A stretch of 11,546 bases of DNA. Source: Pseudomonadota bacterium (GTDB lineage: Bacteria; Pseudomonadota; Alphaproteobacteria; Acetobacterales; Acetobacteraceae). This document shows positions 2,151 to 8,035 of this stretch, piece by piece (position 1 is the stretch's first letter; each line of letters starts with the position of its first letter). Both the position numbers and the translations under genes were made by a program. The stretch lies in assembly GCA_021815835.1 (NCBI GenBank), contig JAKAZN010000021.1, positions 1 to 11,546 of the forward strand. Direction: 5' to 3'. The notes beneath the pieces are model-generated. The model worked only from the letters and a program-made list of their open reading frames with translations. It was not told where the DNA came from and did not search any database.

Positions 2151-3229
2151 CAGCTCTCTCCGTCGCGCGGGTGTGCCAGCAGCCGGGCCAGCCAGTCCGA
2201 CCCGCCGAAAGCGCCCGATTTGGATACCACGCGCAGCCCGTGCCAGCGACCGCCGCGAATCAGCGAGGTCGGCACACCCGGAGACAGCTCCCCGTCCACC
2301 TCCAGCATGGCGGCCCCCAGCGCGTCGCACACACCCCGCAGCGTCTCCCCGCCGGACACCACCAGCGTGCCCGGCCGGTCCAGCGCCGCCAGCAGCCGCG
2401 CGAACCGCTCCCCGATCACGTTCCCGGCCGCCACGCGCGATGCGCCGGGCGGCACCACCACCGCGACCGCCGCGTTGCCTTGCGCCAGCCGGCGCGCGAT
2501 CGGCGCCGCCTCCTCCGCACTCCCCTGGGCAATGCGATGCACCTGCTTCCACGCGGCCGATAACTGGCCCACCGAGACCGGATGGTCCGACCCGATCAGC
2601 GCCAGGATCGGCCCCGGAAGCACCGGGCACGGCACCGGCGCGTGCCCGGCCAGCGCGCCGGCGAGCCCCGCGCAGCCGCACCACAGCACGCGCCCGCCCA
2701 GCACCCGGCCCTCGGCCGCCACCCGATCGAGATCGGCCTCGGTCTCGGCATCCCACAGGCTCACGCCCTCGGGCGCGATATCGCCCGGCCGGCACAGCCG
2801 CGCCGCCACCCCGCGCGCGGCCAGCGCGGCCGGCAGATCGAGGCCCACCTCGCGCCAGGTCCCGCCATCGGCGCGGAATTGCCGCCCGCCGGCGGTGACG
2901 CGCCCCTGGGCCGGGAAAGCCGGCGCGATCACGCAATGATCGAAGCCGTCGAGGCAGGCGGCGAGCTCGGCCGCCACATGGCCGCGCAGCAGGCTGTCGA
3001 TCTTCTTGAAGGCCGGCTCGGCGTCGTCCAGCACCGCGGCCAGCAGCGCGAGGCGCGACAGCGCCGTGTGTTCCGGCAGATGGCGGGTGCCGGAATCGAT
3101 CGCCGCCGGCCAGCCGAGCGCGGCCTGCGGCTTCCAGACGGCCGGCACAGGACCGGCGATCGGCACAAACCGCGCCGCCGCGTCCAGCGCGCCGGTGAGA
3201 TCGTCGGCCAGCAGGCGCAGCCCGGTCAC
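2150..3229 (-). CDS. Four-carbon acid sugar kinase family (DUF1537, DtnK/OtnK-like)
   Basis: A 359-residue kinase, somewhat shorter than the roughly 400-430 usual for the family. Signatures are ADDLTGALD at the N-terminus (residues 8-16), KKIDSLLRGH (75-84), PAFPAQGR (103-110), SGGET (292-296) and KSGAFGGSDWL (337-347). Characterised members phosphorylate D-threonate, L-threonate, D-erythronate or related acids at the 4-hydroxyl with ATP. The PdxA-family dehydrogenase encoded next would then oxidise and decarboxylate the product. The exact substrate cannot be read from sequence. The GTG at 3229 places the ADD motif at the distance from the N-terminus typical of the family. It lacks a clear ribosome-binding site, and an in-frame GTG at 3283 would add 18 residues. 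The gene starts 133 nt after the end of protease gene A, with no clear terminator between. No transporter or sugar regulator is adjacent, unlike many catabolic clusters of this type. Confidence 0.9.
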   Translation of the reverse strand: MTGLRLLADDLTGALDAAARFVPIAGPVPAVWKPQAALGWPAAIDSGTRHLPEHTALSRLALLAAVLDDAEPAFKKIDSLLRGHVAAELAACLDGFDHCVIAPAFPAQGRVTAGGRQFRADGGTWREVGLDLPAALAARGVAARLCRPGDIAPEGVSLWDAETEADLDRVAAEGRVLGGRVLWCGCAGLAGALAGHAPVPCPVLPGPILALIGSDHPVSVGQLSAAWKQVHRIAQGSAEEAAPIARRLAQGNAAVAVVVPPGASRVAAGNVIGERFARLLAALDRPGTLVVSGGETLRGVCDALGAAMLEVDGELSPGVPTSLIRGGRWHGLRVVSKSGAFGGSDWLARLLAHPRDGES

Positions 3230-3362
3230 GGCGCGCGGCGCATCGGCAACCCGAGGCGACCGCGCAAACGACCTACCGCCTTCACCTCTCCGGCCTGCTT
3301 GTCCCGGTCAGACGCGGGTTTCGTCCAATTCCGGCGGCTGGCTCGCATCCATCCCCGAACGC

Positions 3363-5603
3363 TCAGTTGAAGCACTCGACCGGCACCACGCTCGGCCCGT
3401 CGGTGGCGTAGATGTCCTGCGGCGTGACGGGCGGGCCAGGCGGCGCGATCTCGATCTTCACGCCGAGCGAGCGCGCCAGCCGTTGCGCGATCTCCCCGCG
3501 CACCGCGAAATTCACGTTCTCCGCCTTGTCGGGCCGGAGTTGCGCCACGCTGATGCCGATCACCCGCCCGGTTCCGTCCAGCACCGGGCCGCCGGAATTG
3601 CCCGGGTTGATCGGGGTCTGGATCTGGAACTGCGCCGGCGCGCCGGACACTTCCGTGGCGCTGACGTAGCCCGAGGAAATCTTCAGGCTCGCGCCCAGCT
3701 CGAAGCTCAGCGGATAGCCGAGCGCGGTCGCCGGCTCCCCGCCGGCGAGCCGCAGATCGGGGGCGCGGAAGCGCAGCGGCGCGGTGGTCACCCCATCCTC
3801 CTTCAGGATCGCCAGATCGTCGCGCGCGTCCTGCCCCTCGATCCGGACCGACACCGGCGCGCCGGTATCGCGCAGCAGCGCCACGGTCTTGCAGCCATAG
3901 ACGACGTGATTATTGGTCAGGATGTCGCCGTCGCGGGAGATGTAGAAGCCCGACCCGCGCGACAGCAGCGCGCCCGGCTTGCCCCCGGTCAGGCTGACCT
4001 GCGTCGTGTGGCAGACATCGATATGGCCGATCTGCTGGTCCACCTCGTTGTCGAACTCCGCGCGCACGTCGAACATGCAGCCCGAACCCGCCGGAAGATC
4101 GAAGCGCATATCCATCCGCGCGGCGATCATTTCGTTCGCGCCCAGCTTGTTCGCGCCCCAGCCGCGGACCGAGGAGGGCGAGATGAACAGCTTCACGATC
4201 GGCACCCGGTAATCGTTGCGGATATCGAGCGAGAGGGCACCACCCGAGGGGGCCGGCCCAGCGGTCGGCCCAGCGGTCGGCCCGGCGGGCGTTCCGGGAT
4301 GGCTCGTCCCCGACAGCTCGGCCGCCGTCGGCCCATGGAAGACCTGGCCGCCGATCGCGCAGATATTGACCTTGTAGCGGTCCTCCTTCGCGCCGCTCGT
4401 GTAGATCGCGCGCATGTCGTAGTCGCAATGCGCGGCTTCGCCGGCCAGCGGCAGCGGGATCGAAATGGACTGCTCGGCCTCGAGCGGATGGGCCAGCCGG
4501 TTCGGCCCGAAGCTGCGTCCCTGCGCGTTGCTGGGCGAGAGATAGAATCCCTGCAGCGCGGGTCCGCGGGCGTTGCGCACGGTCAGGCTGGACGGGGCGC
4601 TGCGGGCCGCCAATCCAGGCTCGGGCGCCGCGAACACCGCATCCGAATAGCCGCAGATGTTCAGTCCGAGTTGCTGCGAACCGCCGCCATGGCGATAACC
4701 CACCGCGACATCGTAGATGCAGCCGGCGGATGGCGGCAGGTGGACGAGCACCCGCTGGCCCGGGGCGAGCGGGGCGGACAGATGGTTCACCGGGTGCTCG
4801 TGCGTGCCGGTGCGGCGGAACACCGCGCGCAGGATATCGTCCTTGCCGTCGTTGACCACGTAGATATCGGTAGGCGCCGGCTGGCCGATCGGCGCCGCCG
4901 CGACCGGGCCAGGGGCAGGAGACGGGGACGGCGCGGGCGCGGGGGAAGGCGCGGGCGCGGTCGTCGGCCCGGCGAAGCTCTGGTCCGACAGGGTGCAGAT
5001 ATTCACCCCCTGGCGATACTCACGGATGGTGCCGGCGTACATCGCCTCCATGTCGAACACGCAATGCGTGGCATCGAGCGGGATGCGCGCGGTCTGGTTT
5101 TTCCCGAGACTGCCCGACAGCCGGTTGGGACCAAGCGCGGTGCCGCCCGGCGATTGCGGAATGATATAGAACCCGATGAGCACCGGCGCGCCCACGTTCT
5201 TCACCGTGATGGCGAGGGTGCTGCCCGCTTCCCGCACCGTGGGGCCGGCGAAGGTGGTCGTGGCGAACGCGCAGATATCCATGTTGAGCTTGTCGCTATG
5301 CGCGCCGCTGGCGTAACGGGCGTAAAGATCGCGCTGGCAGCCCATCGCGGGATCCGGCGGCAGGGTCGCCTTCTGGTCGCGCCCGAGCGGATGGGCGAGC
5401 AGATTGGCGCCCCAGGCCGTGGTGCCCGCCGCGCGCATATAGAGCCCGGTCATCGGGTCGTTGCCGGCGTTGGACGCGGCCAGGCGGTACTGGGCCAACG
5501 GGTCCGGCGCCTGCGCCCGGGCGATGCCGGGGGCCGCGAGGGCGATGAGACCACCAATCAGGGCGGCAAGACCGCCCCGAAGCGACGCGCGTCCGTGGCC
5601 CAC
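3363..5603 (-). CDS. Secreted multidomain protein A: five two-cysteine repeats plus C-terminal HtrA/trypsin-like serine protease
   Basis: 746 residues. A Sec signal peptide (hydrophobic core about 11-25, likely cut after ARA at residue 30) predicts export to the periplasm or outside. Five repeats follow, with cysteine pairs C89/C111, C181/C203, C295/C317, C393/C415 and C509/C531, each exactly 22 residues apart. Each fits C-x2-D-x4-[YF] and ends in [ND]-[IV]-C. A Pro/Ala/Ser linker (217-234) separates repeats 2 and 3, and a GPTA linker (441-450) separates repeats 4 and 5. The protease spans about 545-720, with the triad His566 (TNNHVV), Asp596 (RDDLAIL) and Ser670 (NPGNSGGPV), and no PDZ domain. 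C571 and C744 are the only other cysteines and could bond. The GTG start has GGGAG 7 nt upstream, exactly as in B. An ATG at 5610 is out of frame. The repeats resemble small secreted alphaproteobacterial domains of unknown role. The substrate is unknown. Confidence 0.93.
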   Translation of the reverse strand: MGHGRASLRGGLAALIGGLIALAAPGIARAQAPDPLAQYRLAASNAGNDPMTGLYMRAAGTTAWGANLLAHPLGRDQKATLPPDPAMGCQRDLYARYASGAHSDKLNMDICAFATTTFAGPTVREAGSTLAITVKNVGAPVLIGFYIIPQSPGGTALGPNRLSGSLGKNQTARIPLDATHCVFDMEAMYAGTIREYRQGVNICTLSDQSFAGPTTAPAPSPAPAPSPSPAPGPVAAAPIGQPAPTDIYVVNDGKDDILRAVFRRTGTHEHPVNHLSAPLAPGQRVLVHLPPSAGCIYDVAVGYRHGGGSQQLGLNICGYSDAVFAAPEPGLAARSAPSSLTVRNARGPALQGFYLSPSNAQGRSFGPNRLAHPLEAEQSISIPLPLAGEAAHCDYDMRAIYTSGAKEDRYKVNICAIGGQVFHGPTAAELSGTSHPGTPAGPTAGPTAGPAPSGGALSLDIRNDYRVPIVKLFISPSSVRGWGANKLGANEMIAARMDMRFDLPAGSGCMFDVRAEFDNEVDQQIGHIDVCHTTQVSLTGGKPGALLSRGSGFYISRDGDILTNNHVVYGCKTVALLRDTGAPVSVRIEGQDARDDLAILKEDGVTTAPLRFRAPDLRLAGGEPATALGYPLSFELGASLKISSGYVSATEVSGAPAQFQIQTPINPGNSGGPVLDGTGRVIGISVAQLRPDKAENVNFAVRGEIAQRLARSLGVKIEIAPPGPPVTPQDIYATDGPSVVPVECFN
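4255..4290 (-). repeat. 12-bp tandem repeat coding the GPTA linker of protein A
   Basis: Two exact copies of GGCCCAGCGGTC (4255-4266 and 4267-4278) and a third diverged copy (4279-4290). They encode repeated Gly-Pro-Thr-Ala between the fourth and fifth cysteine repeats. Gene B ends before this point. Copy number may vary between strains. Confidence 0.8.
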
Positions 5604-5632
5604 CGCTCATCTCCCGTCTGATCGAACGCGAA

Positions 5633-5662
5633 ATTGTGCAACCCGGACCATCCCCCCGTCAA
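5633..5662 (-). promoter_or_regulatory. Candidate sigma-70-type promoter of gene A
   Basis: On the minus strand TTGACG (5657-5662, five of six consensus bases) is followed after 18 nt by CACAAT (5633-5638, four of six). Transcription would begin about 20 nt upstream of the GGGAG site at 5611-5615. The upstream region of gene B carries the same TTGACG, GGTTGCA and GTTCGATC blocks in the same order, which supports a functional promoter. It would let A be expressed separately from B. Confidence 0.5.
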
Positions 5663-5710
5663 CGCAATGTTGGCGCGGGAGCGTATCGTGGGTCGAGATT
5701 CATCGCACGC

Positions 5711-5738
5711 CCGCCGGCCGCCCATTCGCGGCCGGCGG
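5711..5738 (-). terminator. Perfect 11-bp GC hairpin between genes B and A
   Basis: CCGCCGGCCGC (5711-5721) is the exact reverse complement of 5728-5738, with a 6-nt loop. It begins 15 nt past the stop of gene B in the direction of transcription. No T-run follows, so it may be a weak or Rho-assisted terminator, or an RNA-stabilising 3' end for the B message, placed just before the candidate promoter of A. Confidence 0.45.
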
Positions 5739-5752
5739 CGCGGATGCGCGCG

Positions 5753-7069
5753 CTACTGCCTCGCGCCGGGCGGCGGCGCCGAGCCAGGCCCATTGAACAC
5801 CTGCCCGCCGATCTCGCAGATATTCACCCGGTAGCGATCCTCCTTCACCCCGGCCACGTAGATCGCGCGGATATCGTAGTCGCAATGCGCGCTTTCGCCC
5901 GCCAGCGGCAGCGGAATGGTGATCGATTGGCCGGCCGCCAAGGTCCCGCTAAGCCGGTTCGGCCCGAAGCTGGTGGTCTGGGCGTTGCTGGGCGAGAGAA
6001 AGAGGCCCCGGATCGGCGCGCCCTTCGCGGCATTGCGCATCCGCAAGCCGGCGGGCGCGCCGGAGGCGGCCCGACCAGGTTCGGGCGAGGCGAACACCGC
6101 GTCCGAATAGCCGCAGATATTCAGCCGCAGTTGCTGGGAATTTCCGCCATTCCGATAATCCGCCACGATGTCGTACAGGCAGCCCGCTCCGGGCGGCAGA
6201 TGCACCAACTGCCGCTGGCCGGGCGCGAGGGGCGCGCTCAATTGATTGGTCAGCGGTTCGTTGGTGAAGCTGCGCCGGAACGCCGCGCGCACGATCGTGT
6301 CCTTGCCGTGGTTGACCACATAGATATCGGTCGCCGCTGGCTGGCCCTGGGCGCCGAGGGGGGGCGCCGGTTCGGGCGCGGGTTGCGAGGGGGCCGCGGG
6401 TTGCGCCGGCGGCGCGGCGGCCGCCATCTCGGGGCCAGCGAAGAGCTGCTCGTCCTGGGCGCAGAGATTCACCCGTTGACGATACTCGCGGATGGTGCCG
6501 GCGTAGATCGCCTCCATGTCGAACACGCAATGGCCGGCATCGACCGTGACGCGCGCGCTCTGGCCCTTGGCGAGAGTGCCCGACAGCCGGTTGGCGCCAA
6601 GCGAGACGCCGCCCGGCGCCTTCGGAATGACATAGAACCCGATCATGTCCGGGCTCCCCACGTTCTTCACGGTCATGGCGATCGAGCCACCGCCCGCCGG
6701 CATGGTCGGCCCGGCGAAGTTCGTGGTGGAGAAAGCGCAGATGTTCAGGTTCAGCTTGTCGCTGTGCGTGCCGCCCGCATAGCGGGCATAGATGTCGCGC
6801 TGGCAGCCCATCTCCGGATCCGGGGGCAGGGTCACGCGCTGATTGGCGCCGAGCGGGCCGGACACGAGATTGGGGCCCCAGGCGGTGCTGCCGGCGGCGC
6901 GCATGTAGATCTGGGTGATCGCCTCGGTGCCGGCGTTCACGGCGGCCAGGCGGTATTTGGCCAGCGGGTCCGGCGCCTGCGCCCGGGCGGCGCCGGCGAA
7001 CAGGACAGCAAGAAACAACCCAGCCACGGTGGCGAGACCACCCCTCGACGATACGCGTCCATGCGCCAC
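5753..7069 (-). CDS. Secreted protein B: four two-cysteine repeats, paralogue of A without the protease
   Basis: 438 residues. A Sec signal peptide (core about 13-27, likely cut after ARA at residue 30) leads into QAPDPLAKYRL, nearly the same as in A. Four repeats align one to one with repeats 1-4 of A. Their cysteine pairs are C89/C111, C181/C203, C297/C319 and C396/C418, all 22 residues apart and all with D three and Y eight residues after the first cysteine. A Pro/Ala/Glu-rich linker (about 216-244) lies between repeats 2 and 3, where A also has one. The protein ends shortly after repeat 4 (QVFNGPG); A continues there with a fifth repeat and the protease. The GTG start is supported by GGGAG (7077-7081) 7 nt upstream. 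B is transcribed first, 149 nt ahead of A. No enzyme motif is visible. It could be a binding partner, scaffold or decoy for A, but that is a guess from the shared domains. Confidence 0.92.
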   Translation of the reverse strand: MAHGRVSSRGGLATVAGLFLAVLFAGAARAQAPDPLAKYRLAAVNAGTEAITQIYMRAAGSTAWGPNLVSGPLGANQRVTLPPDPEMGCQRDIYARYAGGTHSDKLNLNICAFSTTNFAGPTMPAGGGSIAMTVKNVGSPDMIGFYVIPKAPGGVSLGANRLSGTLAKGQSARVTVDAGHCVFDMEAIYAGTIREYRQRVNLCAQDEQLFAGPEMAAAAPPAQPAAPSQPAPEPAPPLGAQGQPAATDIYVVNHGKDTIVRAAFRRSFTNEPLTNQLSAPLAPGQRQLVHLPPGAGCLYDIVADYRNGGNSQQLRLNICGYSDAVFASPEPGRAASGAPAGLRMRNAAKGAPIRGLFLSPSNAQTTSFGPNRLSGTLAAGQSITIPLPLAGESAHCDYDIRAIYVAGVKEDRYRVNICEIGGQVFNGPGSAPPPGARQ

Positions 7070-7098
7070 GGCCTGTCTCCCGATCGAACGAATGACAA

Positions 7099-7127
7099 AT
7101 CCTGCAACCGCGCCCGGCGCGCGTCAA
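7099..7127 (-). promoter_or_regulatory. Candidate promoter of gene B with palindromic spacer
   Basis: TTGACG (7122-7127) is followed 17 nt later by a weaker CAGGAT (7099-7104), then a leader with GTTCGATC and GGGAG shared with gene A. The spacer holds a perfect 13-bp palindrome, CGCGCC-C-GGCGCG on the plus strand (7109-7121), abutting the -35 box. That is a plausible operator position and is absent from the A promoter. The weak -10 suggests a regulated promoter. Confidence 0.45.
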
Positions 7128-7134
7128 TGCGACA

Positions 7135-7219
7135 AAGCGCCAGGCGATAAAGCGCCGGGCGATCAAGCTCCAGGCGATCAAGCGCCACGATTGTTTCGGC
7201 ATCTGGGATAAAGCGCCGG
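7135..7219. repeat. 15-bp direct-repeat array upstream of the gene B promoter
   Basis: On the plus strand three full units, AAGCGCCAGGCGATA (7135-7149), AAGCGCCGGGCGATC (7150-7164) and AAGCTCCAGGCGATC (7165-7179), are followed by a partial unit (7180-7189). A further 13-nt exact copy of the unit junction (GATAAAGCGCCGG, 7146-7158) recurs at 7207-7219, close to the same phase. The array ends 7 nt from the -35 box of gene B. It may be a set of regulator-binding direct repeats or a slippage-derived tandem repeat. Confidence 0.75.
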
Positions 7220-7246: not shown

Positions 7247-7275
7247 TTGACCGCCCCCCGGAAATGCCGATATCG
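7247..7275 (+). promoter_or_regulatory. Weak candidate promoter for the molybdoenzyme gene
   Basis: TTGACC (7247-7252) is followed after 17 nt by ATATCG (7270-7275). The -35 is good and the -10 poor. The implied leader to the ATG at 7346 is about 65 nt. The call rests on the -35 and on the need for a promoter in this divergent gap. Confidence 0.3.
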
Positions 7276-7345
7276 CGCCAGGGGCCGGCCCCGCCGCGGC
7301 ACGCCGGCGCGGCCATGCCGTGACAGGATCGAGCGGACCACGCCC

Positions 7346-8035
7346 ATGACCGACCAGGACCCCACGCCGGCCAACCCCGAGCTGGCCAACCCCAAGCTGG
7401 CCAATCTCAAGCTGATCGCCGCCAAGCAAGCCTGGGCGCGCGAAGGCCGTCTGCTGACGGGCATCGCCGCCGATCCCGCCCGCGACCGCCTGCCGCCCGG
7501 CCAGACCCTGGTCCGCGACTGGCCGGTGCTCGATCTCGGCGAGCAGCCGGATGTCACCCCGGCCAGGTTCCGCCTGGATATCGACGGCGCGGTCGCCCAT
7601 CCGCTCAGTCTCGACCTGGATTCGTTCCTTGCGCTGCCGCAGACCGAAACCATTTCCGACATCCATTGCGTCACGCAATGGTCGCGCTACGACAACCGCT
7701 TCACCGGGGTCGCGGCCGCCGCGCTGGTCGCCGCGGTGGCGCCGAAGGACGAAGCCCGCTTCGTCATCTTCCACGCCTTCGACGGCTACACCACGAATCT
7801 CCCGCGCGAACGCTTCGAGGCCGCCGACGTCCTGATCGCGCATCGCTGGAACGGCGCCCCGCTCACCCGCGCCCATGGCGGGCCGGTACGCGCGATCGTC
7901 CCGTCCCTCTATTTCTGGAAATCAGCGAAATGGCTGCGCCGGATCGAGTTCGCGCTGACCGACCGGCCGGGCTTCTGGGAACGCCGCGGCTATCACAACC
8001 ACGGCGATCCCTGGGCCGAGGAACGCTACAGCTGA
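7346..8035 (+). CDS. Sulfite-oxidase-fold molybdopterin oxidoreductase (YuiH-like, COG2041 type)
   Basis: A 229-residue single-domain protein of the oxidoreductase molybdopterin-binding (sulfite oxidase) fold. Cys108 in HCVTQWSRYDNRFTGV (residues 107-122) matches the cysteine that ligates molybdenum. Other hallmarks are HAFDGYTTNLP (143-153), HGGPVRAIVPSLYFWKSAKW (177-196) and GYHNHGDPWAEERY (215-228), the last typical of this short subfamily. No signal peptide or Tat motif is present, so it should be cytoplasmic, unlike MsrP or periplasmic sulfite oxidases. The natural substrate of this subfamily is not established. The ATG at 7346 is preferred; upstream in-frame sequence is unlike the family. 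The ribosome-binding site is weak (GAGCGG, 7331-7336). Residues 9-23 are three copies of a five-residue repeat. The gene is divergent from B and lies 85 nt before the carboxyltransferase on the same strand. Confidence 0.9.
   Translation: MTDQDPTPANPELANPKLANLKLIAAKQAWAREGRLLTGIAADPARDRLPPGQTLVRDWPVLDLGEQPDVTPARFRLDIDGAVAHPLSLDLDSFLALPQTETISDIHCVTQWSRYDNRFTGVAAAALVAAVAPKDEARFVIFHAFDGYTTNLPRERFEAADVLIAHRWNGAPLTRAHGGPVRAIVPSLYFWKSAKWLRRIEFALTDRPGFWERRGYHNHGDPWAEERYS
7370..7414 (+). repeat. In-frame 15-bp tandem repeat at the molybdoenzyme N-terminus
   Basis: Three consecutive units, GCCAACCCCGAGCTG (7370-7384), GCCAACCCCAAGCTG (7385-7399) and GCCAATCTCAAGCTG (7400-7414), encode ANPEL, ANPKL and ANLKL. 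They precede the conserved domain and are probably a disordered or helical extension with possibly variable copy number. Confidence 0.85.

Follow-up and report, generated by a model that had tools for sequence, protein, structure and literature searches.

Proteases of the DegP type carry accessory PDZ domains that recognize the substrate and take part in assembly. MarP, which is periplasmic in mycobacteria, is PDZ-less, and its family is defined by an N-terminal CvpA-type membrane domain. According to a 2008 survey, 112 of 247 prokaryotic trypsin-like proteins contain one or two PDZ domains (PMC2605481). The DNA analyzed here (hereinafter, the window) is a stretch of 11 546 nucleotides of contig JAKAZN010000021.1 from a bacterium of the family Acetobacteraceae (assembly GCA_021815835.1), which encodes, on the minus strand, two adjacent paralogues: A, a trypsin-like protease preceded by five copies of a repeat domain, and, directly upstream, B, which consists of four such repeats and lacks the protease. 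Judging from gene order and phylogenetic trees, the combination of a repeat-containing protease with a protease-free paralogue recurs and is retained, the layout having arisen, on these trees, at least twice and having been kept across one group of species. Our tentative interpretation is that the repeats are the recognition or assembly part of an extracytoplasmic protease and that B would be a non-catalytic partner that uses the same surface. The features of the two genes are the following.

3363..5603, minus strand: gene A, five-repeat protein with a C-terminal trypsin-like protease, 746 amino acids (open reading frame (ORF), Pfam, repeat profile)
5262..5474, minus strand: A repeat 1, residues 44-114, C89/C111 (repeat profile)
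4983..5207, minus strand: A repeat 2, residues 133-207, C181/C203 (repeat profile)
4641..4862, minus strand: A repeat 3, residues 248-321, C295/C317 (repeat profile)
4353..4583, minus strand: A repeat 4, residues 341-417, C393/C415 (repeat profile)
3996..4223, minus strand: A repeat 5, absent from B, residues 461-536, C509/C531 (repeat profile)
3369..3980, minus strand: A protease domain, no PDZ, residues 542-745, H566, D596, S670, C571, C744
5753..7069, minus strand: gene B, protease-free paralogue of A repeats 1-4, 438 amino acids (ORF, BLASTP, repeat profile)
6728..6940, minus strand: B repeat 1, residues 44-114, C89/C111 (repeat profile)
6452..6673, minus strand: B repeat 2, residues 133-206, C181/C203 (repeat profile)
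6101..6322, minus strand: B repeat 3, residues 250-323, C297/C319 (repeat profile)
5810..6025, minus strand: B repeat 4, residues 349-420, C396/C418 (repeat profile)

The end-to-end correspondence of B with repeats 1-4 of A, claimed in a preliminary description of this DNA, is borne out by a BLASTP alignment with residues 1-428 of A (65% identity, 282 of 431 columns, 548 bits) that takes in both the N terminus, which resembles a signal peptide, and the Pro/Ala linker joining repeats 2 and 3. The B coding sequence stops inside the counterpart of the low-complexity linker between repeats 4 and 5 of A, and the fifth repeat and the protease are, as originally described, additions of A; B lacks the protease, and a Pfam search of it gives nothing at E up to 1. 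Every copy of the repeat in A and B (∼80 amino acids) contains one Cys pair at a fixed 22-residue offset, and the first alignment, of 14 copies, shows no variation at one Asn, one Asp and the two Cys. The Cys pairs probably form disulfides, and the signal-like N termini suggest that both proteins are extracytoplasmic or secreted. The repeat profile was seeded with the A and B copies and so is not independent evidence for them; independent evidence comes from the alignment of different repeats of A and B with one another (31% over 298 columns, E 6e-31, a single BLASTP comparison).

Trypsin_2 covers residues 550-684 of A (E 3.3e-24, Pfam), and catalytically A is an ordinary S1-type protease. The triad His566/Asp596/Ser670 was correctly identified at the outset: the same three residues are found in all 64 repeat-protease fusions that were collected. 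The same 64 proteins also share Cys571, five residues past the catalytic His, and Cys744, the third-last residue of A, which may pair with each other. Matches to the RT-Protease defense genes (PADLOC) are confined to residues 518-703 of A, that is, the protease and the end of repeat 5; A contains no reverse transcriptase (Pfam), and this assignment was rejected.

The recurrence of the layout is seen in another genus of the family, here labeled g142, where one or two repeat-only genes immediately precede a one-repeat protease gene in 15 of the 35 species. In 14 of these, the intact repeat-only gene or genes are co-directional with an intact protease gene (loci L212, L261-L264, L266-L274); in the 15th, genome G962 (L265), the contig ends within the downstream member of two repeat ORFs, ahead of the expected protease. 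Three loci (L268, L270 and L272) contain two repeat-only genes in a row, with 4-nucleotide overlaps, between copA and the repeat-protease gene. The estimated gaps between the repeat-only and protease genes are 35 to 150 nucleotides and, once, 495, all approximate, with gene starts taken as first or guessed start codons and the ORFs in L262, L263, L268 and L272 over-long at the N terminus. Eight further species that were fetched have the protease alone (L224, L227, L275-L280), the set of regions covering all but twelve of the 35 species.

The first such pair to be found was that in L212 (genome G943), with the repeat-only gene directly upstream of the fusion on the same strand and 47% identity over 107 columns; before the aimed search, this was the only repeat-only neighbor among the 31 fusions outside the window, and 13 further fusions from other genera have none. 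Because 20 g142 regions were chosen after the search had shown where the pairs lay, finding such a gene at 15 of the 64 fusion loci does not amount to a frequency. All 18 repeats of the g142 repeat-only proteins fall outside the fused-repeat clade (95/86), so that these copies are old. The ratio of nonsynonymous to synonymous divergence (dN/dS) is 0.22-0.63 for the orthologous repeat-only genes (ten pairwise comparisons), which are therefore under constraint, and 0.10-0.20 for the fused genes (seven comparisons).

The history of the pair in the window's own genus is different. Among the five congeners searched, A was found in two, full length in both (G005 and G001, 62% and 61% identity), and there was no repeat match in G002-G004; the genomes are a sample, some of them incomplete, and only a limited number of candidates was scored per genome, so that such absences are soft. 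The same-looking sugar-acid-kinase-like gene adjoins A in the window (Pfam SBD_N/NBD_C), G005 and G001. On the upstream side of A, both congeners have, in place of B, a gene for a luciferase-like monooxygenase (by Pfam in G005, with a near-identical gene in G001), so that synteny breaks at B. A conserved B-A pair in this genus is thus rejected, and the adjacency in relatives on which the preliminary description had staked its interpretation is found in neither of the two congeners with A. Divergent from B, in the window, is a molybdopterin oxidoreductase gene (7247..8035, plus strand, PF00174). Long open frames run antisense to A and B (3006..5621, plus strand, 871 amino acids; 5636..7150, plus strand, 504 amino acids), and an 801-amino-acid frame lies antisense over A of G005; the G+C content of roughly 70% is the most likely cause of these frames.

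Of all the repeat proteins found, A is the one closest to B. Across the shared repeats, the identity between A and B is 66% overall and 60-70% by 60-column block, whereas that between A and its G005 counterpart ranges from 34 to 69% and equals the A-B level only around repeats 3 and 4. A tree of 72 chosen repeats, built on 84 columns and subject to long-branch warnings, strongly supports a pairing of A with B that leaves G005 outside for repeats 1 and 3 (100/98 and 98/88) and supports it weakly for repeat 2 (96/66), whereas repeat 4 weakly contradicts this arrangement (93/25). Most simply, the duplication would be younger than the split from the congeners, gene conversion being a possible alternative; its exact age we infer from these comparisons, and the B-A pair is probably local and young.

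Could B then have been thrown off recently by recombination between repeats, as a transient copy without a function of its own? Its absence from both congeners with A and its end within the low-complexity linker of A would fit such an origin. However, A and B differ at about 25% of the nucleotides, and yet B keeps an intact reading frame, its N terminus and every Cys pair, with dN of 0.232 and dS of 0.595 over 403 codons (dN/dS about 0.39 by the NG86 method, dS being high in places), from which it follows that B has been under constraint. Accordingly, B shows no sign of being a pseudogene or a degenerating truncated copy: there are no internal stops. In the 149-base gap behind the B stop codon, there is no detectable remnant of repeat 5 or of the protease, the best candidate (score 45) being matched by 107 of 300 shuffles. 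The data on selection, together with the old, retained repeat-only genes of g142, weaken this explanation, and we consider it very improbable.

The regions upstream of the two genes are also related. The features concerned are the following.

5604..5665, minus strand: upstream region of A, related to the upstream region of B
5662..5633, minus strand: promoter-like TTGACG-18-CACAAT before A (consensus match)
7070..7131, minus strand: upstream region of B, in a start-codon-anchored alignment with that of A

Anchored at the start codons, the 62 bases before each gene align with a score of 36, compared with 26 for the best of 5000 shuffles, none of which was as good; an unanchored test of homology is weak, with 31 of 1000 shuffles as good, and in both tests, base composition was preserved in the shuffles but dinucleotide frequencies were not. 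When the comparison was slid along the window as a control, the upstream region of A came out best after B's own. The aligned stretch before B also contains TTGACG, so that, going by consensus matches, each copy seems to have its own version of one promoter. There is no terminator-like site between A and B. Given the related upstream regions anchored at both starts, co-regulation of A and B is probable.

Such an arrangement could hold the ratio of the two proteins steady, as would suit a competitive brake, the inhibitory special case of a partnership, in which B would titrate the substrate of A or block its assembly. A protease-free recognition half might be the simplest form of a decoy. Nevertheless, the sequence gives no indication of the sign of the effect, no inhibitor-like element came to light, although no search was aimed at one, and we regard this special case as improbable.

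The repeat itself matches no Pfam family, and its single PDB sequence match is at chance level. It is present in 125 of the 249 sampled genomes of Acetobacteraceae. Structure prediction, which had been proposed for both proteins, succeeded in part: the model of B consists of four beta-sandwich domains (mean predicted local distance difference test (pLDDT) 80.6, predicted template modeling score (pTM) 0.52), but that of A is too poor in the protease to use. On the question of a Fibronectin type III or Ig-like fold, comparison of the repeat returned generic beta-sandwich matches only. Searches of the open-licence literature turned up no description of the repeat domain or of the B-A pair and did not contradict the initial statement that no characterized system has this architecture. 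The repeat thus represents a domain that is widespread and secreted-looking, yet described in neither Pfam nor NCBIfam.

Most proteins with this repeat have no protease. The first 62 loci, picked by repeat matches, contain 60 repeat-only ORFs vs 5 fusions; the first 122 loci (those of the window and L079 plus 120 fetched regions, of which the final 20 were selected for the protease) contain 96 and 32, respectively, L110 and L173 each contributing two overlapping frames to the repeat-only count. Eleven ORFs have five repeats, like A, without the protease (L121, L123, L125, L129, L130, L131, L136, L152, L154, L156, L162); most of these barely exceed the repeats, and the one in L156 has ∼990 extra residues. 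In L085, L087, L090, L094, L097, L132 and L135, the repeats are C-terminal, behind ∼190-570 ORF residues that match no Pfam family; these ORF starts may be over-long. Against this background, B could be an independent, sub-functionalized binding protein, perhaps for the same class of ligands as A, with no joint action, and the predominance of protease-free members, the eleven five-repeat ORFs and the congeners that manage without B all make this a serious possibility. It does not readily explain why the closest protein found is A itself, adjoining and with a related upstream region, nor the recurrence of the layout in g142.

Repeat and protease are fused in both orders, with 1 to 5 repeats. 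Of the 64 fusions, 50 have one repeat before the protease, 7 have the protease first and 7 have two to five repeats before it. In the protease tree, from which 14 near-duplicate g142 rows were dropped to leave 50 fusions, A forms a group with the proteases of G005, G057, G121 and G039 (100/100) that is distinct from both the one-repeat and the protease-first proteins. Repeat 5 plus the protease gives matches above 280 bits in six of 397 family genomes (G005, G001, the window's own, G057, G121 and G039), the next best being 147 bits.

Returning to the partnership that we tentatively favor, A would be a PDZ-less S1-type protease in which the array of Cys-paired beta-sandwich repeats plays the role that PDZ domains play in HtrA proteases. 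B would have come from a tandem duplication of the upstream region, signal peptide and repeats 1-4 of A, ending in the linker between repeats 4 and 5. If B occupies the same ligand or assembly surface, it could co-assemble with A, or present or withhold the substrates of A, and thus be an adaptor, a co-assembly partner or a decoy; the sign of the effect is not readable from sequence. The role of the repeats in A is here drawn by analogy, and any action of B on A is likewise something that we infer.

Several observations weigh against such a partnership. Both congeners with A lack B beside it, so that A can do without B. Among the 44 other fusions fetched without aiming at the layout, it was encountered once. 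Repetitive genes easily shed partial tandem copies, so the recurrence could be mutational. The g142 pair belongs to another protease clade than A and, unlike A, lies beside copA, and the g142 repeat-only genes evolve faster than the adjoining fused genes. Finally, the predicted model of A is poor in the protease part (pLDDT mostly under 50). The two-component interpretation offered in the preliminary description thus loses ground in the window's own genus and gains from the recurrence of the layout and its retention in 15 g142 species. Because a pair of similar layout has persisted in many species of another genus, it is worth testing whether B is a helper or regulator, and the window offers a testable example of how the recognition half of a protease, duplicated without the active site, is maintained as a gene of its own.

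For one branch of these proteases, the gene neighborhood suggests a physiological context. Among the 50 one-repeat, repeat-first fusions, from g142 and other genera, 41 have a CopA match in the region, and the nine without it are those in L221 and L283, both truncated by contig ends, and in L225, L226, L228, L229, L284, L297 and L300. The CopA-linked loci are L212-L220, L222-L224, L227, L230, L261-L282, L285-L290, L296 and L301. The protease gene and the P1B ATPase gene are divergent in all 44 loci in which both could be placed (the 41 fusions, L265 and two Roseomonas records). The ATPase of Roseomonas marmotae scores above the curated cut-off for copper-translocating ATPases (534.7 vs 397), and next to it are a CueR-like regulator (147.3 bits, cut-off 147.4) and a CopZ-like protein that is below its cut-off. 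A CTTCC-N7-GGAAG dyad, which resembles CueR sites, is found with at most 1 mismatch in the intergenic stretch of 29 of the 44 loci vs 2.6% of random segments, and with at most 2 mismatches in 38 of the 44 vs 14.7%, the random segments coming from the same loci, coding DNA included.

When approached from the CopA side (30 loci in 100 family genomes), the 11 best-scoring loci (66-77% identity) all adjoin the repeat and the protease, and the other 19 have neither within 1.5 kb; among these 19, L330, a partial match with 71% identity, is a counter-example by identity. The count covers all but two partial matches of 67-69% (G040 and G131); a third, G033, is linked (L301). In L309 (genome G132), repeat and protease are split between two overlapping frames beside copA, and this gene looks broken or mis-assembled.

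A copper link for A and B themselves was rejected: the window has no copA match, there is no CueR-like dyad near A or B, no CopA was detected at the strict cut-off in the window's genome (62% complete), and there is no copA in the regions of A's own branch. The copper link therefore is evidence on the kind of protein, not on A and B. Still, the connection of one protease branch to copper export offers copper as a concrete condition under which a phenotype can be sought in culturable relatives, and the recurrent pairing together with the copper-linked branch is of more interest than the window's pair alone. A broader proposal, which we consider rather unlikely as a whole, is that these proteins form an undescribed extracytoplasmic proteolytic class of Acetobacteraceae in which an uncatalogued Cys-paired beta-sandwich domain would replace PDZ as the recognition module of an S1 protease and upstream protease-free paralogues would tune the enzyme; one branch would be part of the copper-export locus (copA with a CueR-like dyad), and the window's branch would have arrived at this two-gene layout separately.

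Among known systems, the HtrA/DegP/DegQ (Do) proteases share with A the S1-type catalytic domain with its His/Asp/Ser triad, and the best PDB sequence matches of A are DegP-like, MucD and HtrA structures. Unlike A, these proteases have PDZ domains, the place of which is taken in A by the N-terminal beta-sandwich repeats: A has no PDZ match at E up to 1 (Pfam), ends right behind the protease domain and scores far below the curated HtrA/DegP cut-offs (87.4 vs 416.2 bits for TIGR02037, 88.3 vs 450 for NF041521). The earlier designation of A as ‘HtrA-like' is therefore valid for the catalytic domain only and does not extend to the whole protein. MarP resembles A in having a PDZ-less trypsin-like domain near the C terminus, and is the best NCBIfam match of a g142 one-repeat protease (2e-30, but 106.1 bits vs the cut-off of 250); A itself scores 64.1 bits vs 250 (NF033740), with no CvpA-type membrane domain at E up to 1 in Pfam. 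The only Pfam matches in A are trypsin-like or S46 peptidases, hence the conclusion that it lacks a CvpA-type membrane region. By the features tested, A belongs to neither the Do/HtrA nor the MarP family.

Named relatives of the g142 repeat-proteases are two Roseomonas proteins, WP_207448315.1 from R. marmotae and WP_207415907.1 from R. haemaphysalidis (‘trypsin-like peptidase domain-containing protein'; 53% and 48% identity, respectively, over ∼90% of the g142 protein), for which no characterization was found and whose N-terminal part is matched by a g142 repeat-only protein. In both loci, the protease gene lies beside genes for a P-type ATPase, a MerR/CueR-type regulator and a metal-binding-domain protein; unlike the g142 pairs, there is no repeat-only partner among the annotated neighbors. 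As for partners, the NlpI and LbcA adaptors are not known to be paralogues of their protease's own non-catalytic part, and in this they differ from the B-A pair. A possible working model for B and A is nevertheless provided by NlpI-Prc and LbcA-CtpA, in which a separate non-catalytic protein reportedly serves an extracytoplasmic protease (PMC10671308, PMC8764530).

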